From NCBI RefSeq assembly GCF_900111485.1, contig NZ_FOIC01000008.1:1-64000 (forward strand): a stretch of 64,000 bases of DNA, in the 5' to 3' direction. A program made the position numbers and the translations under genes. The DNA is from Natrinema hispanicum (lineage in GTDB: Archaea; Halobacteriota; Halobacteria; Halobacteriales; Natrialbaceae). Within the stretch, counting starts at the first letter, position 1. The number at the start of each line of letters is the position of its first letter. The notes beneath the pieces are model-generated. The model ran no database searches and was not told where the DNA came from. It saw nothing but the letters and a program-made list of their open reading frames with translations. This document shows, piece after piece, positions 40,072 through 60,158 of the stretch.

Positions 40072-41085
40072 ATGACAGACAACCTCGAACCCCTCGCACC
40101 AGCAAAGGGGATGCAGATGTACCTCGACGAACGGAGTCACGAACTCGCGGACGCGACGATCCAATCTCACCGGTATCGGCTCAAGCAGTTCGTGCAGTGG
40201 TGTGAAGAAGACGGTATCGACAATCTCAACGAGTTCACTGGGCGAGACATCCACCGATTCCGCGTCAAACGCAGAAACGAAGACGAGCTCGCAACTGCCA
40301 GCATGAAGGGGCAGCTCGCTACCCTGAGAATGTTCTTCCGCTTCTGTGCCACGATCGATGCAGTCGAACCAGGACTCGACGAGAAGATCATTCTTCCAAC
40401 GACGACCGAGGAGGATGCTCGCTCCGAATTGCTGAATCCTGAACGAGCTCAGAAGGTACTCCAGTTTCTTGACCAATACCGCTACGCGCGTTTAGAACAT
40501 GCGCTAATAGAGGTCCTCTGGCACACTGGGCTTCGTATCGGCGCAGCGATTGGGCTCGATATTGGAGACTACAACGCTGACGAGCAGTACCTCACACTTG
40601 TCCACCGACCCGAGGAGGGGACCTCACTCAAGAACGGGCGAAAGAGCGAACGACTTGTCGCACTGAGTGATCCAGTCTGCGAGGTATTAGATGACTGGCT
40701 CTCGGTCAATCATCCGAGGGTCGTTGATCAGTACGACCGAAAGCCGCTGTTTGCGACGAAAATCGATCGCTTGAGTCGGACTCGTGGTCGGACGATTATC
40801 TACCAGTACACGCGCCCGTGCGTCTACACCGATAGCTGTCCTCACGATCGGGATCTGGACAGCTGTGATGCCCTACCTACTGAGCATTCACACGCGTGTC
40901 CTTCCTCGTTGAGCCCTCATCCAGTCCGACGGGGCGCTATCACCCATTTTCTCAAATCTGACGTTCCTGAAAATATTGTCAGCGACCGAATGGATTGCAG
41001 CGAGGCGGTTCTTGAACGCCATTATGACCAGCGATCAGATCGTGAGAAACTACGGCAGCGACGACGCTATCTCCCTAATAATTGA
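40072..41085 (+). CDS. Tyrosine recombinase/integrase
   Basis: 337-residue phage-type integrase. The N-terminal SAM-like core-binding domain is about residues 10-95 (LDERSHELADATIQSHRYRLKQF). The catalytic domain has box I HTGLRIGAAIGL (Arg near 154), HPVRRGAITH (His and Arg near 283-287) and the nucleophile in LERHYDQ (Tyr near 317). A Cys/His cluster (CVYTDSCPHDRDLDSCDAL, HACPSS) inserted before box II is typical of haloarchaeal integrases and may bind zinc. It is intact and next to a probable att site; it probably drove integration of the island. The small membrane-protein remnant follows 21 bp later. Confidence 0.9.
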   Translation: MTDNLEPLAPAKGMQMYLDERSHELADATIQSHRYRLKQFVQWCEEDGIDNLNEFTGRDIHRFRVKRRNEDELATASMKGQLATLRMFFRFCATIDAVEPGLDEKIILPTTTEEDARSELLNPERAQKVLQFLDQYRYARLEHALIEVLWHTGLRIGAAIGLDIGDYNADEQYLTLVHRPEEGTSLKNGRKSERLVALSDPVCEVLDDWLSVNHPRVVDQYDRKPLFATKIDRLSRTRGRTIIYQYTRPCVYTDSCPHDRDLDSCDALPTEHSHACPSSLSPHPVRRGAITHFLKSDVPENIVSDRMDCSEAVLERHYDQRSDREKLRQRRRYLPNN

Positions 41086-41676: not shown

Positions 41677-42786
41677 ATGAATGCTACAGAAATAAAGCAG
41701 ACACTTGAGCAGATACGTGACGCTGATGAGACTGGTACTTCTACAGAGTTTGCCCGAGAATCAATTACCCAGTTTCTGACCGCACTTGGATATGAAGATG
41801 AGAATATCCACTGGGAAGTTGCACTACCTTCAGAAAAGTCCGATAGTGGTCGGTATCGGCCGGACGCTATTATTGCAAAAAGTTCGGATACCCGTCCTTG
41901 GCTCGCAATTGATTCATATAATTTTGTAAACCAGGATCCCCCCACATATGGGAAACTAGATGGATATGGCCAACGGAGTGAAACATTCGAATATTTAACA
42001 GATATTATGACTACAAATGCATCACTAAGTGTGGTCATATCTGATGAAATTATAGCATATTCTGTCAATTCAAAGAATATGGATGGATTTATTTCAGACC
42101 ATACACAGATAAAACATCTAGATGATTTAGATGAGTTCATAGGAGATATAATAGACAAACTGTCTCCACCGGACAGTTTACCTACAGAACAAACGGACTG
42201 GGATATTTTTGGACCATCAAAAATTGAGTCAGATTATTTTGAAATGTCGTTAGAAAGTTATGAATCTGGTCTTGAAGCGACAATATCTGGAGTAGGTAGT
42301 AAGGATAAAGAAGATAAGCAAAGCACTAATAACAAGGGAGATTTATTAGAAAATCTAACTAAACATATAATAGGGTCAACAAGTGGTGTTATTGTGAGAG
42401 AATCGAATAGATATACTAAAAGAGGAGAATATGATCTAATATTAGAGAGGAACGGAGAAGAAGCACATCCTGTGTTTGATGAATTTGATCGGTTTATACC
42501 AGTTGAATGCAAAAACGTTCCAGACGATTCTGTTGGGACAGACGACGTGAATCATTTTATACGGAAGGTGAGATGTAGTGGATGCAAAGCTGGAATCCTA
42601 GTGACTACAGGAACAGTTTCAGGAGATCGTGGTAAGTATGCTTTATCTAGCATTCGTGATTCTTTTGAGAATCAGGGAATAACGATAGCAGTCATAAGAA
42701 ATAGCGAACTTCAGGAATTAAAGACCGGGAGGACTTTCCCTGAGCTCCTTGACGATTGGATTTTCGATTTACGATTTCCGAAATGA
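41677..42786 (+). CDS. Mrr-like restriction endonuclease
   Basis: 369-residue protein. The N-terminal 170 residues resemble type I HsdR N-term-like sequence (TQFLTALGYEDENIHWEVAL; YRPDAII, WLAIDSYNF), and the C-terminal domain carries the PD-(D/E)xK core GDLLENLTKHI, RGEYDLIL, FIPVECKN (Glu/Lys at about 275-277) and GILVTTGTVSGD. Mrr proteins cut modified DNA. No methylase adjoins, which fits a modification-dependent (type IV) enzyme; alternatively it is an orphan. Codon use is AT-rich, indicating transfer. The ATG at 41677 starts MNATEIKQTLEQIRDADE. Confidence 0.72.
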   Translation: MNATEIKQTLEQIRDADETGTSTEFARESITQFLTALGYEDENIHWEVALPSEKSDSGRYRPDAIIAKSSDTRPWLAIDSYNFVNQDPPTYGKLDGYGQRSETFEYLTDIMTTNASLSVVISDEIIAYSVNSKNMDGFISDHTQIKHLDDLDEFIGDIIDKLSPPDSLPTEQTDWDIFGPSKIESDYFEMSLESYESGLEATISGVGSKDKEDKQSTNNKGDLLENLTKHIIGSTSGVIVRESNRYTKRGEYDLILERNGEEAHPVFDEFDRFIPVECKNVPDDSVGTDDVNHFIRKVRCSGCKAGILVTTGTVSGDRGKYALSSIRDSFENQGITIAVIRNSELQELKTGRTFPELLDDWIFDLRFPK

Positions 42787-45787: not shown

Positions 45788-46726
45788 GTAGGGCTTGTTT
45801 AGACGCGTGAGATCAGTGGTATCAGTGCCTCACAGCTTGCTCGATGTTTCTGACGGCAGCCTTTAGGACGAGTTCTCTGAATTGGCCAAACCACGTTCTA
45901 GCCCGCAACGTCTCGCCAAACCGATGTTTCAATACGAAGAATATCGCCTCGACAATCGACCGTCGGTGATAGACATTCTCGTCGTGGCGAGCGTTATGCG
46001 CTTTGTCGAGCGCGTAGAACTCTCGATGTTTGATCACTGGTCGGATGCCAGCGTCCCTGAGTTCGTGCCGCAGCGCGTCCCAGTCGTATCTTTTGTCGGC
46101 GGTAATCGTGGTAAGCTTGGTGAGATTCTCGTGAGTAGCTGTCGTCCAACTTGTGTATCGTGCGGCTGTTTCATCGAACAATGAACGTCGAGGATGACGC
46201 TGGTATCGCAATCGACGAGTGCTGTCGTCTTGATATCGTCAAAGTTGTAGCCGACGCGGAGAACGTAGTGACGGCTGGCTTGATGGCGTTTGAAGACGGT
46301 TGCGTCGATCGCCTGAACGTCGCCGAGGTCGTGCAGTGAGACAGACAGCCGCAATAACACCCGCCAGATCCGCATTTTGAGATCTTGTTTCCGCGTACAG
46401 ACGGTCGTGAAATCCGACAGCTGATTCACAGAAAGTCCGAGTTTCGCGGCGATTCCGGGCATCTCGTGCAGAATGTCGAGCAACAGGCGATATGGCTGGT
46501 TCAGGTATTCCCGGAGGCAGTGGATCGAGATAATCACCCAGTCAGCGTAGCCGCCGTCACCCTTCCTGATCGCCGGCGCTGGCTTGCCGATGACAGCGTT
46601 CTGGGACAAATCGACACATCGGTCGGTGAAGCGGGCGAGTTGAGACGGCATACTCGCCGCTCCCTCGCTCAATTCCACATAATCCCGGTCAAGACGTCAA
46701 CTGAGCAGCGTCTAAACACGGCCTGC
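45788..46726. mobile_element. IS5-family insertion sequence
   Basis: The left end GTAGGGCTTGTTTAGACGC and the right end (minus strand) GCAGGCCGTGTTTAGACGC are inverted copies. Both flanks carry GCT, a 3-bp target duplication consistent with some IS5 groups. It encloses a damaged transposase gene. The fragment left of it (45663-45787, minus) reads protein-like: SAWRDERAQNSELVKYM. Confidence 0.75.
45822..46678 (-). pseudogene. IS5-family transposase with a frameshift
   Basis: The first part from 46678 (MELSEGAASMPSQLARFTDR, then SVNQLSDFTTVCTRKQDLKM and VQAIDATVFKRHQASRHYVL, and DVHCSMKQPHDTQVGRQLL) shifts frame near 46120 into NLTKLTTITADKRYDWDALR, REFYALDKAHNARHDENVYH and RRSIVEAIFFVLKHRFGETL. 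DDE residues are in AIDATVF, ADKRYDW and RSIVEAIF. One frameshift; programmed slippage cannot be excluded but a single broken copy in a decayed region favours a pseudogene. Confidence 0.78.
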
Positions 46727-46907: not shown

Positions 46908-48761
46908 CTACCAGTTCAACCCAAATGGAGGCGGAGAGTAGTGATCGGAGAGTAGGCCGTTTTGCGCGACTTGGAAGCAGTGTATCCTTATGTACTCGTT
47001 CGCGTCACCAAGATCGGGTCGGACCTCAAGTAGTTCATTATCCTGTGCGATAGCCTCTGCGTCTGGATCACCAGCTGGAATGAAGAAGGGAACAACAACG
47101 TCCCAACCGTCGGCCACCTCATTTTCCAGATAGCTTTGCAACTTCCGGTTTGCACCAAGGATAGGCCGAACTTCTCGTGGATTCAATCTATTGGAGAGGC
47201 GCTTGTCCCTCACGATATAGTTGAGAATCGCTCTCGTGTTGTCTGCCACGGCCGCTGGTGTGAGTCGCTTCTCACCGATGATATCGGTCAGGTTCGACGC
47301 TTCCACCTCTGGATGGCAGACTGGCCTGTTACGTAAATCAGTAGTCGCATTGGTGCTGCGCTGCTTGCCGAAGCGGTCACGGAGGTAGTCTTGAATTGCC
47401 TTTCTAAGTCCTTCAGTAGAGAACTCGTCCGCCTCGGGAGTGATGATGGTCAAACCACCGCTCCTACCTTGGAATTTGAATGTCTCCGCTTCTGCGAGCG
47501 GAGCCACCATCGCCAAGTTCTCCGTCTCCAAATGGAAGCCGTAGGAGAGTAGCCGAGATCGGGACCAACTACCCTTGAGTGGGTTTTTCGCTTTGGCATA
47601 GTACTTGCTGTCGAGTACCGCCTCAACTCCCTCATCGGACCGTATCACGTGGTCGGGCTGGCTTCGAAGGGAGATGCTATCATCTTCAAACAACTGGTAG
47701 GACTCCTTCTTGATGCTGAAGCTATCCAACCCATCGATCATCGGGTTCCCTTGTAGGTACTCAAGTTCCTCCGTCAGTGCTAGTCCAACGTATTCCTCAA
47801 AGAGAGACTCCATCCCGATGATGTACTCCATCAATAGCTCCTCTCGGCCCTGGTCTAAGGGTTGGCCAATCGAAGAGGAAAGGATCGTCTTCGAGATTTC
47901 CAGTGCCTGTGCGTAATAGTGGCGCTGTCGGGGAATATCGTTCGTGGTGATCTCTGGTATGTCGCTCAGCGAGACACTCTTCCCCGTAACGCCGCGGCTT
48001 TCAAGTCGTTTGATTGCTCGCTCAAGCCGCGAGTATATTCGCGTGTAATTTTGGTTGTCACTCGCACCTGCGTACAAGTGGAACAGCCTCTGTAGCTCTT
48101 TCCCAGCACGATAAATCAGATCATTGACTGGAATGCTGTACTCAACGTCCTTTTGAACGAAGACGTGCTTTGGCACGCCTTTCGGGAGATCAAAATTACG
48201 AAGGCTGCTGTGTATATCAATCTGGCCTCTCGCGTCCAGTGCCTCTGTTCGTCTACGTTCAAATGAACGGATGAACCCGTGTCTGAAGATATCGTCCAAG
48301 CTATTGAGATAATTGACTGCAACAACGATGAATATATCTTCAATTCCGATATCATCTGCGAGGAAATCCCGAATCGGGATGCCCCGATATCTCAGTGATC
48401 GGCGATGGTAGCCGACATCCAAGAACATCTCCAAGATTTCTCCCCAGCCGATTTTCGGATCAATCTGGAGCGTCGCGTTTGGTGTGAGATTGACAATCCC
48501 GACGATATCTTCTACATCAATGACCAGTTCGTTGTCTCGGACTTCAACGGTGACGACCTTGGGGTCTGAGTTATCATTTGTCGGACTGACCCTTTTAATG
48601 TAGGTATTGGCCGCTTCACCTTCGATGAATGCAGCCCGTTTCAGCTGGTCTACGATATCTGGCGGATACTGGCGTACTCTCCGCTTACCTTTCTCCTCGA
48701 CCTGTAGCCGCGGCTGAAGCGCCCCTTCAACATCCCTGCTCTGCCCCGGTCGTATGCTCAT
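46908..48761 (-). CDS. mcrC: McrC, nuclease subunit of McrBC-like restriction system
   Basis: 617-residue McrC-type protein. The N-terminal region (about 1-330) matches the McrC insertion part with VGIVNLTPNATLQIDPKIGW and SLRYRGIPIRDFL. The PD-(D/E)xK nuclease core follows: MESLFEEYVGLAL, RSQPDHVIR and EAVLDSKYY with Asp/Lys at about 384-386. A C-terminal 170-residue extension is unusual for McrC (RKAIQDYLRDRFGKQRS onward). Partner of McrB: the GTP/ATP-driven motor and nuclease cut modified foreign DNA. Its start overlaps the mcrB stop by 4 bp (ATGA), so the two are coupled. Confidence 0.85.
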   Translation of the reverse strand: MSIRPGQSRDVEGALQPRLQVEEKGKRRVRQYPPDIVDQLKRAAFIEGEAANTYIKRVSPTNDNSDPKVVTVEVRDNELVIDVEDIVGIVNLTPNATLQIDPKIGWGEILEMFLDVGYHRRSLRYRGIPIRDFLADDIGIEDIFIVVAVNYLNSLDDIFRHGFIRSFERRRTEALDARGQIDIHSSLRNFDLPKGVPKHVFVQKDVEYSIPVNDLIYRAGKELQRLFHLYAGASDNQNYTRIYSRLERAIKRLESRGVTGKSVSLSDIPEITTNDIPRQRHYYAQALEISKTILSSSIGQPLDQGREELLMEYIIGMESLFEEYVGLALTEELEYLQGNPMIDGLDSFSIKKESYQLFEDDSISLRSQPDHVIRSDEGVEAVLDSKYYAKAKNPLKGSWSRSRLLSYGFHLETENLAMVAPLAEAETFKFQGRSGGLTIITPEADEFSTEGLRKAIQDYLRDRFGKQRSTNATTDLRNRPVCHPEVEASNLTDIIGEKRLTPAAVADNTRAILNYIVRDKRLSNRLNPREVRPILGANRKLQSYLENEVADGWDVVVPFFIPAGDPDAEAIAQDNELLEVRPDLGDANEYIRIHCFQVAQNGLLSDHYSPPPFGLNW

Positions 48762-50032
48762 CGGCCGCTGAGTCTCTGTTCTTCGCTTTCGTACCGTTGT
48801 TCGGCGAGTTCGATTGCGGGAGTCAAGTCGAACTGGTCAAATTCGTCGTCCAGTCTCCGATAGTGGTTAGGCAACTCTTCGATTTGCGGGAACGTCGCAT
48901 CATTCAGCAGACGTGGCAGTATGTAGATCTTGAACGCCTCTCCCACAGCTCGCGGGGGGTCGTCTCTGTGTACGCCGACCCCTGGGTCGTCTTCTGGGCC
49001 AGGGCTGGATTCAGTGACGGTACCAAGGAAAGCGGCAACGTCACGGTAGTGCATAGGCCCGAACTCGTGGATTCCAGTCCCGTCGTCTGTTCCGTAATTC
49101 AGTCCCTCGTAGTCTGCGTGGAACAGATTGACCAGTTGTGATGTACTCAACTGCCCATTCTCAACGTGATGGTTCACCCAACCACTGAACAGTTCTTCTC
49201 TGGCAGCCCGATCGTATCCGCCTACCTTTATCATTGCAAACCGGCGGGTAATTGCGTCGTCCAGTTCGTTGACCGTCCTGTCGGACACGTTCATTGTGCA
49301 GATAATTTTAACTCTGGAGTCGAGAGTGATCGTTTCTCCAGAGCTCGTCTCGAATAGCGTCTGAGATCGATTTTCGATGGCAGTGTAAAGGGGACCGAAG
49401 ATTCTAGAGATGTCTGCTCGGGTCAGTTCGTCAATTATCAGCCCCCAGTTCTCGTCAAAATCTTGTGCTTGAATGACGGCATTCGAAACACAACCCGGTT
49501 CTTTGACGTACTCTACGCTCTCCCCCGAGTAGTCGGGTGCGATTCGTCCGATGATATCTTGATCCGTCCAAGATGGAGCAGCCGTTTCTATGTCGTAGCC
49601 GACTGCCGTTTCCATCGCCAGTTGTTTGGCAAGCGTAGTCTTCCCCGTACCCGTAGGCCCGTACAGCACGACCGGCTTACCCACTGCCAAGGCACCGAGC
49701 GCGTTCTCCCACACGGCCTTTGGGACAACCTTGCTCAGATTCCGTGGATCATCTTCGCGGGAAACAACGTCCCTCTTTAGTTCAGCCGATATATGGTTCG
49801 AACTTAGGATAGCTTTCCGAATTGGTCCTATCCCCCTTTCGCCGTCGTGGAGAACGTCAACGGGTTTCTCTCCAAATTTCTCGTCCAGTTCGTTCAATAG
49901 ATATTGTATTGTCTCTGAATCGGTCGCGTCTTCGATAACACGCTGCGCTGTATCCTGATCCCGAGAAATCTCAGAGTTGAGTCGTTTAGCGTCATCAAGT
50001 GAGTAGCCAGATGACTCCCCGATACTGCTCAT
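48758..50032 (-). CDS. mcrB: McrB-like AAA+ GTPase/ATPase
   Basis: 424-residue AAA+ motor. The Walker A motif LYGPTGTGKTTLAKQ is near residue 122, the Walker B LIIDELTRADISRIFG near 197, and the McrB-typical TMNVSDRTVNELDDAITRRF near 250. The N-terminal 100 residues show no known modified-base-reading domain, which is the part that sets target choice in other McrB proteins. It is the first gene of the mcrBC pair. The short N-terminus resembles archaeal McrB variants. A 236-bp gap separates it from the OLD-type gene on the same strand. Confidence 0.85.
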   Translation of the reverse strand: MSSIGESSGYSLDDAKRLNSEISRDQDTAQRVIEDATDSETIQYLLNELDEKFGEKPVDVLHDGERGIGPIRKAILSSNHISAELKRDVVSREDDPRNLSKVVPKAVWENALGALAVGKPVVLYGPTGTGKTTLAKQLAMETAVGYDIETAAPSWTDQDIIGRIAPDYSGESVEYVKEPGCVSNAVIQAQDFDENWGLIIDELTRADISRIFGPLYTAIENRSQTLFETSSGETITLDSRVKIICTMNVSDRTVNELDDAITRRFAMIKVGGYDRAAREELFSGWVNHHVENGQLSTSQLVNLFHADYEGLNYGTDDGTGIHEFGPMHYRDVAAFLGTVTESSPGPEDDPGVGVHRDDPPRAVGEAFKIYILPRLLNDATFPQIEELPNHYRRLDDEFDQFDLTPAIELAEQRYESEEQRLSGR

Positions 50033-50268: not shown

Positions 50269-53200
50269 TTAAACGTCTGGATCCATGGCTGAATCAATCT
50301 CAGCAAATAACCGATTAAATGAATCGAGCTGATTTTCGTCAACTTCCGACCGATTCAGTCGAGAAGCGATTCGTTCCGCAATCTGCCGTTTGCGGAGTTC
50401 GATCTCACCTCTTGAGTTTTGGATTTCTTCAGCGATATCTGATTGTTCCAAATATTCTACTAAGACTTTGTCAAGCCGTGTTCCATCGTATTCAATACCC
50501 CCGATCTCCCAACTCAGTCCGCCAATTTCCTCTACGGAAGCGGGCTCAAAACTGGATTCGAGTTCAGATGTATATTCTTCATACTCTGCGTTGAATTCGG
50601 AAACGTATAATTGAGGAACAAACATATCTTCGGTTACGACGTTTTCGCTGCTAGAAGTGTTTTGTAATAAAACAACACGATCTGTTTTAATATCGTGATT
50701 ATGGTCTCTGATTCTTTCGTACGTGTCTTGGCCTGCCTTGTCACTGTCCAGCATTATTACGTAGTCAATCCCTTCAGCTTCCAGCCAACTTGCTTGCCCC
50801 ACGACGTTACTGGCTCCACGGACCGGCATAACTGAAACTTCCTGCCACCCAAATAAATCTCTGTCCAGAACTTGGTTGAAATAATTAGCTACCGCAGCTA
50901 TTACGTAATACTCGGTTGGACCCTCAACAAGGAGTTGTCGGCGGGATACAAAGGGGGAAGAGCCAAGATCAACACCTAATGCATTTCGAAGAGGCTCAAG
51001 AGTGTGATTATCCGATTCAAAGATGTCTTCTCTAATTTTTGTACCTCCCCCTGGAGTATCCTCTACAGCACGAATTCGTGAAGGGTAGCGTTTGTCAATT
51101 AAGTATGGTGAATGTGAAGAGAAAACTACTTGTTCACTTTCTCCGATCTCATTAACTGATTCAAGCCAATCGCGTTTCCCCTCTGGATGGAGGTAGACTG
51201 CGGGATCATCCAAGAGTAGTACCTTGCTTTCATGATCATCGCCGCTCGTTTCCGCGAGCAAATTAATGTAGAACGAGAAAAACCACTGGAAGCCCTCACT
51301 CCGTTGTGAGGGATAAGTTAGCGGTCGTTCGTCTACTGCAGAACCTGAGTTTAGTTGATCTTGAATCATCAGGTGGAACGTCTCGTCTGAGTCAACCCAG
51401 TTGAGATCAATATTCAGGCTTTTCTGAGACCAAGCTGCGTTCAGTTTATCTTCTATTCTGTTCTGAGCGTGCTCAATCGCATTTGATTGAGCTAACATTG
51501 AATCTCCAAAATCATCTAGTGATACCTCACCGATATCTAGAAGATTCTGGAAAGTGTTTCGCTCACCGTTCTTTAATTGGTCAATCGATGCCTTATCGCT
51601 AATAAGGTCGTAGCTATCATAATACAATACGTTCGGAGAAGGTAGATCGGGTTCGTCTACATCAACGGAAGCCTCAATTTGCGAATCATAGCTATTGTCG
51701 AAGTATTTTGTTCTTGTAATAGTGAGTGGATGTTCAATCTCTTGGGATATATCGGGGTAAAAGTCTTCAACCAGCGATTTGCTAAGCTGGAACCGAAGGG
51801 TGATTATGGGTATATCCCCATCAAAATCTGAAGTCGCCTTTGAATTGGAGAGATCCCGATCCGTATACTCATAATCCTTCGAGAAGGAGTTGATCGCTTC
51901 TAAAGTAGAGGTTTTCCCACTCTCATTTTTGCCAATTAGGGTTGTCACATTCTCCAACTCGATAAACCCTGTATCTCTGATATTTCTGAAATTTTGGATG
52001 CGTATCTCAGATATTTGTATTGCTGGCCCACGTTCTTGCGAAAAAACTTTTTTATTAGACTCTCCTTGGACACTCTCCTCAGTGTCTTCGAAGTCATCCT
52101 GAACGATTTCTTCCTCAACGAATTCCAAAGAACTCTGAGTAGATTCTTGATTTGCAGATTGCTCCCCTTCAACTTTCACCAAAGTACTGGAAGATAGAAG
52201 GGAATCTAACTGTTTCAGAGACCCTGATGAAAGCTCTAAACGGGTGGGTTTGCTTCCCCGACCAACAATGTATTCGCCGAGTCCGGCACTTTCTGCTGTC
52301 TGAAGTATAGTCGTAATTGCCTTCCTCAGGGTTTCATCTTGGTAATCTCTAAAGTTGAACGTGGTTCGTAGCTCCTTGCGGATAGTCGGTGAGTCTATCC
52401 AATCTATATCTCCCCCATCCTCACTTGACTCTGCTATAGAAGACCGAAGAATATGCCGATAACTGGAACACCGCTTAATTGCCTCTTTGAATAGGTTCTC
52501 TCTCTCTGATTCTTCAGAGGCAAAAGCCAACTCGAACCCATCATCTGTAAGTTTAAAACCCTCTTCCGTCTCTTCAACAAATCCCAGTGCTTTCGCGTAT
52601 TTCGTAGACCCCCGAACAGATCTTTTTGAAACATCAAGATCATCGGTAAGACTCTCTACCGAATGAGTTCCACCTTTTGAAAGCACGCCTACTAAATCTA
52701 GAAGTGCCTCCGGATTTCCGCGAGTAGGAGGAAATTCAATTTCCCGAGGATTGTCCGGTAATTCTTGAGTTGAAGTCAAGTTGACTGATTCCACTTCCGT
52801 GTCTTTTTCATTATCTTGACTAGGAGATATTCCATCATCGGATGTGTAGACAACTGGGTCTTCCTCTGAAGTATCCAACTTGAAGAACCCAAACAGAGAG
52901 AAGATCTCAATCGCTGTGGAAACACTTCCCAGATTGTCTTTATCGATATCCAACTGACCTGCTACTTTAGTCGAAAGTTCGTCGAGTGTGAATTCTTCGT
53001 TCTTAGCTAAGAACTGGGCTTCAGAGAATAGATCATACTCGCTCAGATTTTCCCCAATATTTTTTCTCGCTTGTTCTTTTGAATCACCGACCTTCCTAAA
53101 ATAGTCAACAACTGGTTTTGACGGAACATACACTCCTGCTTTCTCAGCCTCGATCAAGCTAATATCACTGAAAAACCGAAGGCAACTGGAGCAAGTGGTT

Positions 53201-53334
53201 TCGTTCAGATTTATTGCAGCCTTCTTATAATGAATCGGTTCTCTCTCTTCATCGTATCTTTTCACTAAATCTTCTAGAGCAGTTAGATGTGCATCAGGAC
53301 TGAACCTATCAAGGGGAAGAGGTCGGTCAGACAT
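50269..53334 (-). CDS. OLD-family ATPase/TOPRIM nuclease with N-terminal winged-helix region
   Basis: 1021-residue protein. Residues about 1-440 are a winged-helix-like region (two modules: TLDELSTKVAGQLDIDKDNL and SVESLTDDLDVSKRSVRGST), including a CSSC near 47-50. The SMC-like ATPase follows, with Walker A LIGKNESGKTSTLEA near 463-474 and Walker B LLLDDPAVYLHPEG near 705. The TOPRIM domain has LLVEGPTEYY near 800 and VIMLDSDKAGQD near 860. OLD proteins cut DNA in antiphage defence (OLD, GajA, PARIS relatives). The N-terminal part is far longer than in P2 OLD. It shares strand with mcrBC, so it may be coexpressed; whether it acts with it is unknown. AT-rich. Confidence 0.82.
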   Translation of the reverse strand: MSDRPLPLDRFSPDAHLTALEDLVKRYDEEREPIHYKKAAINLNETTCSSCLRFFSDISLIEAEKAGVYVPSKPVVDYFRKVGDSKEQARKNIGENLSEYDLFSEAQFLAKNEEFTLDELSTKVAGQLDIDKDNLGSVSTAIEIFSLFGFFKLDTSEEDPVVYTSDDGISPSQDNEKDTEVESVNLTSTQELPDNPREIEFPPTRGNPEALLDLVGVLSKGGTHSVESLTDDLDVSKRSVRGSTKYAKALGFVEETEEGFKLTDDGFELAFASEESERENLFKEAIKRCSSYRHILRSSIAESSEDGGDIDWIDSPTIRKELRTTFNFRDYQDETLRKAITTILQTAESAGLGEYIVGRGSKPTRLELSSGSLKQLDSLLSSSTLVKVEGEQSANQESTQSSLEFVEEEIVQDDFEDTEESVQGESNKKVFSQERGPAIQISEIRIQNFRNIRDTGFIELENVTTLIGKNESGKTSTLEAINSFSKDYEYTDRDLSNSKATSDFDGDIPIITLRFQLSKSLVEDFYPDISQEIEHPLTITRTKYFDNSYDSQIEASVDVDEPDLPSPNVLYYDSYDLISDKASIDQLKNGERNTFQNLLDIGEVSLDDFGDSMLAQSNAIEHAQNRIEDKLNAAWSQKSLNIDLNWVDSDETFHLMIQDQLNSGSAVDERPLTYPSQRSEGFQWFFSFYINLLAETSGDDHESKVLLLDDPAVYLHPEGKRDWLESVNEIGESEQVVFSSHSPYLIDKRYPSRIRAVEDTPGGGTKIREDIFESDNHTLEPLRNALGVDLGSSPFVSRRQLLVEGPTEYYVIAAVANYFNQVLDRDLFGWQEVSVMPVRGASNVVGQASWLEAEGIDYVIMLDSDKAGQDTYERIRDHNHDIKTDRVVLLQNTSSSENVVTEDMFVPQLYVSEFNAEYEEYTSELESSFEPASVEEIGGLSWEIGGIEYDGTRLDKVLVEYLEQSDIAEEIQNSRGEIELRKRQIAERIASRLNRSEVDENQLDSFNRLFAEIDSAMDPDV

Positions 53335-53533: not shown

Positions 53534-54664
53534 TCACCAGTCTGGCCAAGATTTTCGAACCGCTTCGGATCGATCTTCCTTCTTTTGCTGCTTCGACCGT
53601 GTATCATAGTGTTTTCTCAGTACGTTTTCGGATACGTTGAATCGATCACTGGCCAGATCTCGACGGAGCCCACCGCTTAGCTGATTGACTATTGCACCTC
53701 GTCGAATTGCATGCGGGTAATATGACTGTGGGCAGACGTTCGAATCTGGGTCGCAACTGCCATCACAGGTCGGTCCATCAGACGTTTCGGGTGCCCAGTG
53801 ACAACTCGTTGCTTCGTATATCCATCGGCGCAGTGTTGACCGTGATGCACGTCCATATGACGTTGCGAACAAGGGTCGTCGTCCATAATCGTCGGTGACG
53901 TCAGGACGTTCAGTGTCGATGTACAACTGGATCGCTTCTACGGTGCAATCCTTGATCACGATATCGCGCTCACCGTCCCCTGGTGTATCATCATCCTCAC
54001 TGCCGTTTTTGAGTCGAGTCCCGGTTTCTGGCCGGTGTCGGAATCGAAGTGTGTTGTTATCTGGATCAAAGTCCTGTAAATCGGCCGAATGAATGTCACC
54101 GATTCGCGGTCCGCCATTCCAGCCGAGTTCCATCAGAGAGTGCATTGAAGATCCGCGGCGACGTTGCCGCAGTCTTTGGATGCTAGCAGCTGCCGTCTCT
54201 TCGGGAATTGTCTCGTCGCGCGCCTTCAGTGAGAGTCCGAGTTCCTTCTTGTCGAGAAGTCGGTAGACTCCCTCCTCGCAGTAGTTTCGCCTTGCAAGCC
54301 AGCGTAACCACGCCCGGACATTTTTCGTGTGGGTGAGGATTGTGGCGTCTAGGTCGTACTCCAGTTCGAGTTTGTCTATGTACCCCTCTACCAGTTTTAC
54401 CGAAATGCCTGCTGGGTGTGTTACGCCGTGATCTTCGGAAAAGTCAATGAAATCCGGGATAGTACGGTGGTACTGACCACGTGTGGCTGGGCTCCGGTTT
54501 TTTCGACGAGACAAGTATCGATCAAATTGCTCCGACAGAGTTGGCTGTTTCAGGGGAGAGAGGCCGTTTTCTGGTGTTTCTTCGATCCTGGCTGCTTCTA
54601 GAACCTGCTCGATTGTGTCGGGATCATCAATTTGAACCAGTACTTCAGCCAACTCTTTCGTCAT
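53534..54664 (-). CDS. Tyrosine recombinase (second of a tandem pair)
   Basis: 376-residue recombinase. Core-binding domain about 50-130 (FDRYLSRRKNRSPATRGQYH). Catalytic residues: Arg in WNGGPRIGDIH near 186, HAIRRGAIVN near 318 with His and Arg, and Tyr in LRKHYDTRS near 352. A Cys cluster (SCHW, TCDGSC, NVCPQ) precedes box II, as in haloarchaeal integrases. It starts 2 bp after the stop of the upstream recombinase-like gene, so the two are cotranscribed. N-terminal 45 residues resemble no named domain. Confidence 0.87.
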   Translation of the reverse strand: MTKELAEVLVQIDDPDTIEQVLEAARIEETPENGLSPLKQPTLSEQFDRYLSRRKNRSPATRGQYHRTIPDFIDFSEDHGVTHPAGISVKLVEGYIDKLELEYDLDATILTHTKNVRAWLRWLARRNYCEEGVYRLLDKKELGLSLKARDETIPEETAAASIQRLRQRRRGSSMHSLMELGWNGGPRIGDIHSADLQDFDPDNNTLRFRHRPETGTRLKNGSEDDDTPGDGERDIVIKDCTVEAIQLYIDTERPDVTDDYGRRPLFATSYGRASRSTLRRWIYEATSCHWAPETSDGPTCDGSCDPDSNVCPQSYYPHAIRRGAIVNQLSGGLRRDLASDRFNVSENVLRKHYDTRSKQQKKEDRSEAVRKSWPDW

Positions 54665-54666
54665 AG

Positions 54667-55572
54667 TTAGTTAACTAGGTCAGCAATAGCACACCACCGA
54701 ATATCGGAAGGAGTTACGCTATAATGCTCCGGAGAGCGGTTCTGATCTCCTGAACTTTCCTGCTGTACATTGGCGCTATGCGGAGAGTATGTGATAGCGG
54801 TTTCACTCTCCTTCTTAACCGATCGGCGAAGGGTGCAACTGCTAGACCTCCCTCGTGAGGATGTAAACAGCGGTCGCCTCCCGTTCTCATGACTCGCCTT
54901 TCGTTCATAATCCAAATATATTTTCAGTGGCTCACTCGTTGTTGCCGAGATTTCAACTGAACGCTCAGTAACCAACCCTGCTTGTGATGCCAAGAACTGG
55001 TCGGACAATTCAACCTCTACTACTGATTTATCCAAATCAATATTTGACAGATTAATCCTCTGAACAGGGCCTACAGGGCTCATCGTATCGGCCAGGATCT
55101 CTGCGAAAACGTGCGTCCGGGACCCGAACCTGCGTTGCCGAAGGTGATCGAACAATGCCTCTACAGTTTCTCTGGTGGTTTCATCAAGACATCGACCCTC
55201 ATTAATTGGATGCCAAATTCGGTTCTTCAGCGTATCCACCTCTGGAGCGGCCCCCATGTTGAGTTCTGAAGCAATCTGAACCTTCACCAGCTCAGGATCA
55301 TCCCCTGTGGCAACAGCAAGGTAGTTTGCTACAGTACAGAGGCGACCATATACGGTATCGACGCTATGGTTACTGGAAATAAGGCAATCTTCCACAAAGC
55401 ACGCTACTTGTTCATCACGCGCGTGCTCGGGAGCGATACCATGTTTCTCACACCAGCATCGATATACGGTAAGATCCCGCTTGTGAGAATGATACGTACT
55501 TGCGGGCACGGTCCCGGAAAGGTGATCAAGATAAGTCGTGATTTTAGTTGTCTTGTTCGCTGCACTTGCCAT
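54667..55572 (-). CDS. Recombinase-like protein lacking the catalytic tyrosine
   Basis: 301-residue relative of the downstream recombinase. The core-binding part (PASTYHSHKRDLTVYRCWCE) is intact, and a partial catalytic domain follows (GRRPLFTSSRGRSSSCTLRR, TPSDIRWCAIADLVN). Box II has SDIR in place of HxxR, the Cys cluster is lost, and the protein ends before the usual C-terminal tyrosine. It should be inactive by itself, but the intact frame and coupling to an active paralogue suggest a non-catalytic partner subunit. First of the pair, with the other starting 2 bp later. Confidence 0.7.
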   Translation of the reverse strand: MASAANKTTKITTYLDHLSGTVPASTYHSHKRDLTVYRCWCEKHGIAPEHARDEQVACFVEDCLISSNHSVDTVYGRLCTVANYLAVATGDDPELVKVQIASELNMGAAPEVDTLKNRIWHPINEGRCLDETTRETVEALFDHLRQRRFGSRTHVFAEILADTMSPVGPVQRINLSNIDLDKSVVEVELSDQFLASQAGLVTERSVEISATTSEPLKIYLDYERKASHENGRRPLFTSSRGRSSSCTLRRSVKKESETAITYSPHSANVQQESSGDQNRSPEHYSVTPSDIRWCAIADLVN

Positions 55573-55758: not shown

Positions 55759-56475
55759 TCAATACTCCAAAGCTCGGCTCTTAACCACTTTATCCGATCT
55801 TCTATGTCTATATGAGATCTCTTTACAAACCATTAAATCAAGCTCAAGGGCCATGCTCTCTTTCACCTCCTGTGGGGATAATGTTTCACCATCAGGAGTG
55901 TTTACTGCCATTTGATACCGCTTATTCTCACCAGAGTAGTCTTTATCAAGATAGGTGGGAAGATCATCTTTGGTTGGGGTCTCATATAATCTTGTATTCG
56001 GGTTAACCAATACTAGATCAGGGACCTCTTCCTCAATGTATCTTTCAGAATCAGAATCCTGAAGTTGATCTTTTCCTAGCTTAATTCCATCTGAAAGTGC
56101 TCTTCTGAAAGCCAGTAATTCATCAGTTGGTTTGTCAGATGGAGTATAGCCTTCGTCGAGAATTTCCTCATCAAATATTCCGTCGTAATCGATTGTGTCA
56201 TTGGTGATTATGTACGCGAGGGCGATAAGGTGTTTTGCGGCATCCTGATGATCATCTACTTCATCAACTACTGCTTCATCTGTGACCTTTTCAAATAGCT
56301 CCCCAAAGGAATTTAGATTCGAGATATTATCAATGTCGAGTCCGGATAGAAATTTTAGATCGTCCATTGCCATTGCAACTCGTTCTTGGCATGCGTTTTT
56401 TCGCTTCGACTTGTTCTTTTCATCGTCCTGTAACCAGTCACGATCGGTTTCAGTGAGTAAACCCTTCTCTGGCAT
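55759..56475 (-). CDS. Haloarchaeal element-associated hypothetical protein
   Basis: 238-residue acidic protein. It begins MPEKGLLTETDRDWLQDDEK, where LTE-DR-WL is a pattern I have seen at the start of many uncharacterised haloarchaeal element-borne proteins. A C-terminal half with PDLVLVNPNTRLYETPT, then QMAVNTPDGETLSPQEVKES. The frame is open to 56589, but the ATG at 56475 fits that pattern. Same strand as the recombinase pair 190 bp downstream; it could be a third gene of that unit. Function unknown. Confidence 0.5.
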   Translation of the reverse strand: MPEKGLLTETDRDWLQDDEKNKSKRKNACQERVAMAMDDLKFLSGLDIDNISNLNSFGELFEKVTDEAVVDEVDDHQDAAKHLIALAYIITNDTIDYDGIFDEEILDEGYTPSDKPTDELLAFRRALSDGIKLGKDQLQDSDSERYIEEEVPDLVLVNPNTRLYETPTKDDLPTYLDKDYSGENKRYQMAVNTPDGETLSPQEVKESMALELDLMVCKEISYRHRRSDKVVKSRALEY

Positions 56476-56822
56476 GACAGATAGGATTTCACGGTGCTTG
56501 TAATAAAAGCGCTGACGAACCGGCAGTTCAAACCAAATTCCCGTGACGTTTGCTTTAGTTAGTGAAATGGAAATAAATACACTACTCATTCCTGTATGGA
56601 ATCAGAACAAGCAAATCCGCTAACGAAAGATATCGGATTAGAAGCCAGTAGTCTCAATAGGGCTAGCAGCCGCGTTACAGGAAGTGTTCTGGGCAGAATT
56701 GAAACCAAATCTTTGATTCTGTCTGCCATAGCGAACAAATCGAACAGACATCGACAGTCCTCAATAACTTCAAGATGTCCTCGTCAAGTTTGGACATGAC
56801 TTAGGGAGGATGTGTTCAAGTT

Positions 56823-58270: not shown

Positions 58271-58469
58271 AGTCCCGGAATATCGTCTACTTGGTATGGG
58301 CCCTGGTATTTGTTGTTTTCATTTCAACACTGAATCAAAATCTGACTCCAGTTGACGGATCAGGTCTCTTTTCGGCCGTTGCGATCACATCATTGACGCC
58401 AAGTCATTTCATCAATTGGCGATTGGATCACTACCGGGAACTGAATATCTTGCTCTGTTGAATATCTTA

Positions 58470-59120
58470 CTATCGAACGTACCTTGGTAGAAGTTCACGA
58501 TTATATCGGCTGAGTTTTACTTGTTCCTCAGTGAACAGGTCCCCAAGTGTCAGTTCTAGAGTCTCCGGGTTGAATCGTCCAACCTTGAGTGGAGCAATCC
58601 GCTGGATATACTGTTCAACTCGATCAACATCATGACGTCCGCCGGTATGGAAAATCAGATACGTACGATATCCATTGGAGAACATTCTTCTAAGACGGCG
58701 ATACAGGGCAAGCTTTGATGCCTTGTGATAAATTTCAGCAGCAATCTGTACAGGATTTGTAATCTTCACATCCGCGATTACGAAGTTTGGCTGAGTCCCA
58801 ATCCACTTTTCGACGTTGATCTCTACTGGTTCACCAGTGAGTTCATTGATACGGTTGTGGAGGGCTTTTACAGTTATTTCAGCGACAATCTGATGTCCCC
58901 CGGATATTGATTCGGCCGCAAAGCAGTCGGGCGTTCCATCCTTATGAACAAAGAAATCGAGCAGATACTTTGTTGACAATCCATTATATTCGACCTCCCT
59001 ATTACAAATAGGGCAACTGAAATTGTATTCTAAGGTTGGATAATGACTTTGACTAATTAGTGTCTGTATTTCTTTACCAGTATAGATGTGGTTGATATCG
59101 TTACGTTTTGCTATGAACAT
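58470..59120 (-). CDS. CoiA-like protein (PD-(D/E)xK nuclease, tentative)
   Basis: 216-residue AT-rich protein. CPICNREVEY near residues 37-46, with KDGTPDCFAAES, HQIVAEITVKALHNRI and EINVEKWIGTQPNFVIADV follow, then VQIAAEIYHKASKLALYRR. This order (Cys pair, HxxxK helix, acidic ..D in PNFVIADV, E in AAEI..S) is the layout of competence protein CoiA family nucleases. The match is by pattern only. It lies between an integrase and small regulators. Confidence 0.42.
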   Translation of the reverse strand: MFIAKRNDINHIYTGKEIQTLISQSHYPTLEYNFSCPICNREVEYNGLSTKYLLDFFVHKDGTPDCFAAESISGGHQIVAEITVKALHNRINELTGEPVEINVEKWIGTQPNFVIADVKITNPVQIAAEIYHKASKLALYRRLRRMFSNGYRTYLIFHTGGRHDVDRVEQYIQRIAPLKVGRFNPETLELTLGDLFTEEQVKLSRYNRELLPRYVR

Positions 59121-59350
59121 TGGCTATTGCATATGAATGATTGTTTGGTTATTTCTGGTCCTAGACTGGACCAGTATTACGCCGGTACCCTTCTGCAGCC
59201 GAGAATAATCTTTTCAGATTCTCATGTTACTGTGTACGTTGAAAGTCAGGTACTTACTCAATCGCCAGTTGATACCGAACGTAAAATACCACCTTCAATT
59301 ATGTCTTTTAGCTTCAAATCTATAATCAATTGGAAATCTCAACAAGACCC

Positions 59351-59728
59351 CTAATTTGTATCCGTGTATTCCTGGCTCAGTAACGTCTGGAGCGCAATCT
59401 CATTGAGATTGCTCAAAAGAAGGGCAAGCGTATGATTAGATCCAGCAGTAACAACCTGTCTCTTGGAGTCATAGATGATGATATTGGCGTCTGAAAGGGT
59501 CGATAGATGCGTCTGAGAAAGTGCATTGTACACGTTCCGGTACGGCTCACCAGTCGCGCAATCCACCGAGACGTCTTGTTCTTGGGCGGTGATTTCCTTG
59601 GCGAGAGTTCGGACCGAGAGTTCATCATCGCTCTCAGCCACCAGCTTGATCACGTATCGACGACGTGATGCTCTAAGTGAGTGGTAGACCTGTGAGAGAA
59701 AGTCGTCAATGGAGCTGTTGTAATCCAT
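59351..59728 (-). CDS. DUF7344 winged-helix protein
   Basis: 125-residue protein. It begins with the haloarchaeal DUF7344 pattern (DDFLSQVYHSLRASRRRYVI, LSVRTLAKEITAQEQD, YNALSQTHLSTLSDANIIIY), a winged helix with likely DNA-binding. It is divergent from the small HTH gene at 59910, and the palindromic sites lie in between. Confidence 0.75.
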   Translation of the reverse strand: MDYNSSIDDFLSQVYHSLRASRRRYVIKLVAESDDELSVRTLAKEITAQEQDVSVDCATGEPYRNVYNALSQTHLSTLSDANIIIYDSKRQVVTAGSNHTLALLLSNLNEIALQTLLSQEYTDTN

Positions 59729-59829
59729 AGCGAATCCGTAAAATCAGCCTATGAATCACCAACAACTGTGCTCCTAAGGCATATCCGCGAGCGATCATTC
59801 GCATGTTCTCGTGCAAATTCGGCACGGAA

Positions 59830-59878
59830 TTAGTTCTTTTGAAAGAACTAATGACGGTTAGTTCTCTCAAGAGAATAA
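59830..59878. promoter_or_regulatory. Pair of palindromic operators
   Basis: TTAGTTCTTT (59830-59839), TG, AAAGAACTAA (59842-59851) is a perfect 10-bp inverted repeat. A second, TTAGTTCTCT (59858-59867), CA, AGAGAATAA is imperfect. The two are 28 bp apart, between divergent genes of two small regulators. GAATAAAT within the second overlaps a likely TATA box for the gene at 59910. A repressor binding here would control that gene, perhaps autoregulation. Confidence 0.65.
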
Positions 59879-59909
59879 ATGGCTAACTACCGTCTGACCA
59901 GCGCTTTTC

Positions 59910-60158
59910 ATGATGGACGACGGACCTGGCCGGAAACCGACGATCACTGACGACGACATCCTCGACGTATTTCGCTCAGCCTCTGATCCCGTCCTGACTA
60001 CGTCTGAGGTCGCATCTCACTTCGATATCACGCATCGAGGTGTTCGGGATCGGTTGGCGAAATTAGAACAAGAAGGTGTGCTTGAATGCAAGAAGGTCGG
60101 TGCGCGTGGGATGGTTTGGTGGTATCCCGGCCACACATCAACTTCTGAAACACCGTGA
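59910..60158 (+). CDS. Small winged-helix DNA-binding protein
   Basis: 82-residue protein. The HTH region is TSEVASHFDITHRGVRDRLAKLEQEGVLECKKVGARGMVWW in pieces, of the MarR/PadR-like or IclR-type wing. The ATG at 59910 (or 59913) is about 35 bp after the operator pair, fitting a short-leader transcript. It likely represses its own promoter. Confidence 0.72.
   Translation: MMDDGPGRKPTITDDDILDVFRSASDPVLTTSEVASHFDITHRGVRDRLAKLEQEGVLECKKVGARGMVWWYPGHTSTSETP

Follow-up and report, generated by a model that had tools for sequence, protein, structure and literature searches.

A haloarchaeal OLD-family nuclease with two predicted winged-helix modules in front of its ATPase

Nucleases of the OLD family normally begin at their ABC ATPase (PMC10568477, PMC12796447), and how the stand-alone ones find their target is an open question, to the point that it has been asked whether any of them works alone (PMC10568477). 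In Natrinema hispanicum (contig NZ_FOIC01000008.1; the window, i.e., the whole 64,000-nt stretch analysed here) a gene of this family encodes about 435 residues ahead of the ATPase. What are these residues, and what could they do for the nuclease behind them? Our analysis suggests a DNA-targeted antiviral nuclease of an architecture that is not described in the literature searched; we found no account there of an OLD protein with such a front region, and the haloarchaeal clade U8 (PMC12796447) may include it. The likely targeting part is here attached yet separable, and recognition and cutting can therefore be examined one by one.

The gene, its catalytic half and the OLD classes

The gene starts with ATG, runs through without a single internal stop and encodes a protein of 1021 residues, in which two front modules (N1 and N2) are followed by the ABC ATPase and then by an OLD-type TOPRIM. 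Its parts are as follows.

50269..53334, minus strand: N1-N2-OLD nuclease gene, 1021 aa (single ORF; Pfam and PADLOC matches; intact homologues in L050 and L031)
52795..53334, minus strand: module N1, residues 1-180, predicted tandem winged helix (profile A3; model; profile similarity to N2)
52180..52746, minus strand: module N2, residues 197-385, predicted tandem winged helix with a FokI/BrxA-like recognition fold (AF2 model; structure matches; separate copies, including one in HRTV-5)
52024..52179, minus strand: acidic linker, residues 386-437 (net charge -11; no match to the tail profile here)
50953..52023, minus strand: OLD-type ABC ATPase, residues 438-794 (Pfam AAA_15 and AAA_21; motif positions)
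50605..50952, minus strand: OLD-type TOPRIM, residues 795 to about 910 (Pfam PF20469, full profile; alignment to TsOLD 6P74)

Both catalytic motif sets are complete, i.e., Walker A GKNESGKT (residues 468-475; 51910-51933), Walker B LLLDDP (residues 706-711; 51202-51219) and the TOPRIM motifs LVEGPTE (at 802) and LDSD (862-865), the latter lining up with those of TsOLD (6P74). A preliminary description of this DNA had already noticed all three sites, with Walker A near residue 463, Walker B near 705 and the TOPRIM at about 800-860. AAA_15 (PF13175, 1.6e-18) and OLD-like_TOPRIM (PF20469, 9.6e-8 over residues 795-865) both score above their Pfam cut-offs, and Old is the best PADLOC match of the whole protein (1.7e-36), which thus has the order that marks the family, an ABC ATPase with Walker motifs and then an OLD-type TOPRIM. 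The same description took the sequence for one gene, and a division into two was rejected, the ORF also being single and uninterrupted in L031 (1007 aa) and L050 (about 1024 aa).

Having ATPase and TOPRIM in one chain encoded by a lone gene, the protein resembles the class 1 OLDs (P2 Old, TsOLD), as seen in the motif alignment with TsOLD and a BLAST match to P2 Old, and like them it has no conserved partner among the four fusions compared. Unlike class 1, it does not start at the ATPase and has 435 extra residues comprising two predicted winged-helix modules. Class 2 (Gabija) is recognised by an adjacent UvrD-like helicase (GajB), and the neighbours here are mcrB and a tyrosine recombinase; class 3 (retron) by an adjacent reverse transcriptase and ncRNA, the former being absent from the Pfam-scanned neighbours; and PARIS (class 4) by ATPase and TOPRIM on separate genes, which here share one ORF. 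The suggestion that the front region lies outside the described OLD classes was supported, as known classes lack the roughly 435 extra residues.

The front modules and their predicted fold

When sampled genomes of the order were searched with residues 1-435, N1 (1 to about 180) and N2 (about 197-385) were also found apart from each other. Profile searches of defence and domain libraries placed the front 435 residues in no Pfam family above its cut-off and in no PADLOC model. Below curated cut-offs, N2 members weakly matched AAA_assoc_C (PF09821; 8 of 20 members) and DUF7226 (two of 20), families that differ in architecture. For DUF5343 (PF17278), which the front modules may resemble, the Pfam search gave no match from any N2 member. 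Over 100 columns the profiles of N1 and N2 line up in register (P 0.001), with a score of 27.3 against a maximum of 24.7 in block-shuffled controls, and because this alignment beats all 99 of 99 such controls, the view that the two are related, duplicated modules is supported, though weakly. Of the "duplicated winged-helix N-terminus" first proposed for this gene, the winged helices are thus upheld by structure prediction and the duplication more weakly by profile alignment. The CSSC reported in the same region is there, and C48 and C51 vary among homologues; it is therefore no motif, and a zinc or disulfide site was dismissed.

Structure prediction recovered winged helices in the front region on models of medium confidence. 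An initial AF2 model of both modules together, built on two sequences, had low overall quality (pLDDT 46) and included a clear winged helix at residues 206-281, matching structures of CggR, MarR and Zalpha at Z 10-11. Within N1, residues 101-165 were modelled as a winged helix (pLDDT mostly > 60), and its first half had no confident model. For N2 alone (AF2, 3 sequences; mean pLDDT 66, pTM 0.57; the five models spanned 34-66) the predicted order is a winged helix, three helices, a second winged helix (pLDDT about 64-70) and a final helix. With VIA-align the top match of this model was FokI bound to DNA (Z 12.3, 3.2 Å, 176 residues), alongside free FokI (Z 12.1) and Nt.BspD6I (Z 10.2, 170-174 residues); single winged helices reach similar Z but cover only about 65 residues. 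In the Foldseek list BrxA (7zge) ranked first by TM over the whole length (0.46/0.52), though no match was significant, and Foldseek returned nothing significant from a viral library. Neither a PDB profile search (at E < 1) nor a Pfam search with N2 members found FokI, BpuJI or BrxA. With FokI and BrxA out of reach of sequence profiles, the likeness is stated at the level of the fold, i.e., N2 is, with medium confidence, a tandem winged helix with a FokI/BrxA-like recognition fold. Only N2 has a tandem HTH that superposes on the FokI recognition region, on this medium-confidence model, and N1 may share its fold.

The comparison with FokI, Nt.BspD6I and BrxA extends over most of the predicted module. 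BrxA, which contains a pair of HTH motifs and binds dsDNA, has itself been likened to SspB, BpuJI and FokI (PMC9240713), and BpuJI is linked to N2 only through that paper. Unlike these proteins, to which there is no sequence-level match, the fusion has an OLD-TOPRIM cutter and not PD-(D/E)XK, and no partner methyltransferase occurs among the island genes scanned. N2 is very acidic as a whole (mean net charge -15), whereas its predicted recognition helix 1 has a mean net charge of +1.4 (+5 here, with the sequence KRSVRGSTKYAKA) and its wing 2 one of +1.15, where R365 is conserved in 19 of 20 members.

The modules in other loci and a proposed function

N1 and N2 are shared across effectors. Both also occur as separate genes in haloarchaea, and N2 does so in the virus HRTV-5. 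N1 (by profile A3) stands alone in L034 and L039 and together with N2 forms 506-aa proteins in L032 and L033, while N2 alone makes up many proteins of 250-320 aa; a search for N2 across the phylum found almost nothing beyond the order. In L032, L033, L035 and L042 the partner is putatively a HEPN protein, the motif RNxxGxH being invariant in it (4/4), and in L035 and L042 the genes of module and putative effector have a 9-bp gap or a 4-bp overlap between them. These 320-334-aa partners are called putative because the motif is all that supports the assignment, with no PDB or Pfam match. HSDR_N nuclease stands beside or is fused with the modules in L045. HerA-like ATPases lie beside N2 in L036, L037, L040 and L043 (in L037 and L043 judged by gene order and N-terminal sequence only). 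Several haloarchaeal loci, nameless in PADLOC and Pfam, are thereby flagged as candidate defence systems. One front domain serving many effectors has a known precedent in HEPN/Toprim-NTD1 and AbiJ-NTD, which occur with HEPN, TOPRIM, REase and other effectors (PMC3710099); unlike N1 and N2, neither of which matched any family of these types in Pfam, the described examples are mostly bacterial.

Most of the separate forms finish with a conserved strand-helix tail, which scores above shuffles in 14 of 17 (leave-one-out tests) and in none of the six fusions (four OLD, two Ymh). In the gene studied here the tail is absent and the acidic linker (386-437) stands in its place. The simplest reading would be that the tail binds a partner and becomes dispensable once the effector is fused.

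Some of these loci offer observations of their own. The HerA-type genes form a recurring haloarchaeal operon (L036 9394-13607, L037 9205-13477, L040 1061-4285, L043 9277-13441) of a 137-162-aa protein, a tailed N2 protein and a HerA-like ATPase with a coiled coil, joined in L036, L037 and L043 by a 329-aa protein in convergent orientation with a match to the N2 profile (with AAA_assoc_C in L036), and it looks like an unnamed defence system. In L041 (7416-10054) and L049 (7666-10342) one protein joins N2 with a Ymh-type HEPN domain, and a GHKL-type ATPase comes next, that of L041 resembling MzaB. In L034 (9113-10877) and L039 (7919-9629) a tailed N1 protein overlaps a protein of unknown family (300 aa) in which the stretch HDRWILSD is conserved; a PLD-like reading of this partner was dropped, its HxRx4D motif having been seen by eye only, with no Pfam or PDB support. 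In L048 (8967-9482) an N2 protein precedes a 171-aa protein that consists solely of CDC48 N-terminal domains. Finally, gp40 of Halorubrum tailed phage 5 (HRTV-5; L051 7983-8750) is a tailed N2 protein two genes from a type IIG RM gene, and viral contig scans with four N1/N2 queries returned only HRTV-5 itself.

What, then, could the front modules do for the OLD nuclease? We lean, by a little, towards N1 and N2 reading DNA and directing or switching on the nuclease in antiviral defence. The fusion would be a single-protein haloarchaeal defence nuclease in which N1 and N2, as paired winged helices of FokI/BrxA type, would recognise a sequence, a modification or a structure in invading DNA and recruit or activate the attached ATPase-TOPRIM part, which would then nick or cut DNA under the control of ATP, like other OLD proteins. 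Related systems would have the modules as separate proteins beside other effectors, mostly with a tail to which the partner may be bound; in the present gene, fusion of the effector would have replaced that tail. DNA binding, nuclease activity, the trigger and the antiviral function are thus what we infer for the fusion. Weighing against DNA reading are an N2 model of medium confidence built from 3 sequences and the lack of a significant FokI match by Foldseek or profiles. The genome, searched for two methyltransferase families, has no N6_Mtase and one N6_N4_Mtase locus, on another contig; with that one locus elsewhere and none in the scanned genes of the island, host DNA would have to be protected from a FokI-like enzyme by some other means.

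More tentatively, and as a possibility that we would not rate highly, N1 and N2 could be a haloarchaeal family of plug-in DNA readers of the FokI/BrxA type, fused to or in operons with unrelated effectors (OLD-TOPRIM, HEPN, PD-(D/E)XK, HerA, GHKL/Ymh) in a whole series of undescribed immune systems, and the OLD fusion would be a one-protein restriction-like enzyme with no dedicated methyltransferase that tells self from non-self otherwise.

That the added domain sets what the enzyme recognises, as first suggested, agrees with the resemblance of the predicted N2 to the FokI-type recognition part, and the choice offered between a DNA and a protein trigger persists as one between rivals. Winged helices can also bind proteins, and AriA of PARIS responds to Ocr. 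The front modules might thus sense a protein or act as inhibitors, either holding the OLD nuclease inactive or binding a viral protein, with the nuclease set free on infection; in relatives with separate genes they would control HEPN and other effectors as an antitoxin or a switch does. We regard this as the main rival, and as rather unlikely. It would suit the operon-like pairing seen in L035 and L042 with effectors of known or putative toxicity, a tail that resembles a partner-docking element, the very acidic character of the modules overall and the protein sensing known for OLD ATPases (PMC12839542). However, the whole-module fold matches are DNA-recognition domains, positive charge gathers on the predicted recognition helix and wing 2, and the partners include HSDR_N and, in the virus, the nearby type IIG RM gene, both of which act on DNA.

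Origin of the fusion and its island

Four fusions are known (the window, L050, L031 and L030), three of them from 392 sampled genomes (the window's own counted) and one more from a separate scan of genome contigs, and the front region of about 435 residues is present in all four. They form one clade (100/100) that requires one change on a tree containing no OLD class 2 or class 3 reference sequence, and they span at least three haloarchaeal families. Thus, the fusion arose once. L031, from the same family as the window, branches outside the other three, whereas L050 (Salinigranum salinum, Haloferacaceae; OLD part 77.5% identical to the window's) and L030 (from another family, with a frameshift in the TOPRIM region) group with the window, and this therefore points to spread by horizontal transfer. 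The nearest haloarchaeal OLDs outside the clade (L084 and L085, 673-674 aa) begin directly at the ATPase, as does P2 Old, in line with the earlier statement that OLD nucleases start there, and the stretches fetched around them hold no N1 or N2 genes. No partner gene is shared among the window genes compared in the four fusions, where only integrases recur (2/4).

This distribution bears on whether the gene could be a chromosomal maintenance OLD and not a defence gene. The only characterised archaeal OLD, Cran1 of Sulfolobales, does act in cell cycle progression (PMC12796447). Cran1, by contrast, follows the Sulfolobales species tree in its conservation (PMC12796447), whereas the fusion, being rare, spread over at least three families and adjoining recombinases in two of four cases, is not vertically kept, and we regard a maintenance role as very unlikely.

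In the window the gene belongs to an island bounded on the left by a 337-aa recombinase (at 40072) and on the right by two recombinases side by side (53534-55572).

40072..41085, plus strand: left boundary recombinase, 337 aa (Phage_integrase; 95% identical to that of genome G344)
41677..42786, plus strand: Mrr_cat-type restriction endonuclease, further island cargo (PF04471 above cut-off)
46908..48761, minus strand: mcrC, 617 aa (PF10117, 6.6e-14)
48758..50032, minus strand: mcrB (AAA_5 and McrB matches)
53534..55572, minus strand: right boundary tyrosine recombinases, 376 and 301 aa (integrase domains; pair also in G344, with other cargo)
55759..56589, minus strand: 276-aa protein travelling with the recombinase pair (48.5% identical to its G344 counterpart)

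The right-hand pair is 64% and 37% identical to that of G344, whose recombinases enclose type I HsdM/S and HsdR, GmrSD and an AAA_15 ATPase instead of the Mrr-like, McrBC and OLD-fusion cargo of the window. Because the same flanking recombinases enclose different defence cargo in G344, the site is a defence-gene exchange site.

Could the fusion serve McrBC next door as an accessory, in one joint system or as part of a first line and its backup? The coordinates confirm the shared strand and 236-bp gap that had led the preliminary description to pair them, and OLD proteins are known as backup effectors in wHTH-rich BREX loci (PMC12839542). However, the pairing failed on the homologues, as mcrBC adjoins none of the three other fusions; mcrB has TATA-like boxes of its own at -29 and -52 (in its upstream sequence), and the island is a site of mixed cargo. 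With no conserved neighbourhood the functional link was rejected, the accessory reading is already largely refuted and very improbable, and mcrBC is probably a separate system. Barely probable, lastly, is a front region that works as an autoregulatory transcription factor domain ahead of an OLD part acting as any class 1 OLD: its best single-domain matches are transcription factor winged helices (e.g., CggR, MarR), but two modules with four predicted winged helices exceed the usual need for operator binding, and the whole-module match is to restriction enzymes.

The island and its surroundings hold three further features. McrC (46908-48761, minus strand) is long, its McrBC domain ending near residue 389 and being followed by about 230 residues with no Pfam match above cut-off. 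Two overlapping ORFs in different frames (45822-46678, minus strand) together resemble a broken IS transposase within the island. Beside the recombinase site, DNA at 58465-60143 is 82.5% identical to G344 and encodes a 216-aa protein, a DUF7344 protein and a small winged-helix-like protein.
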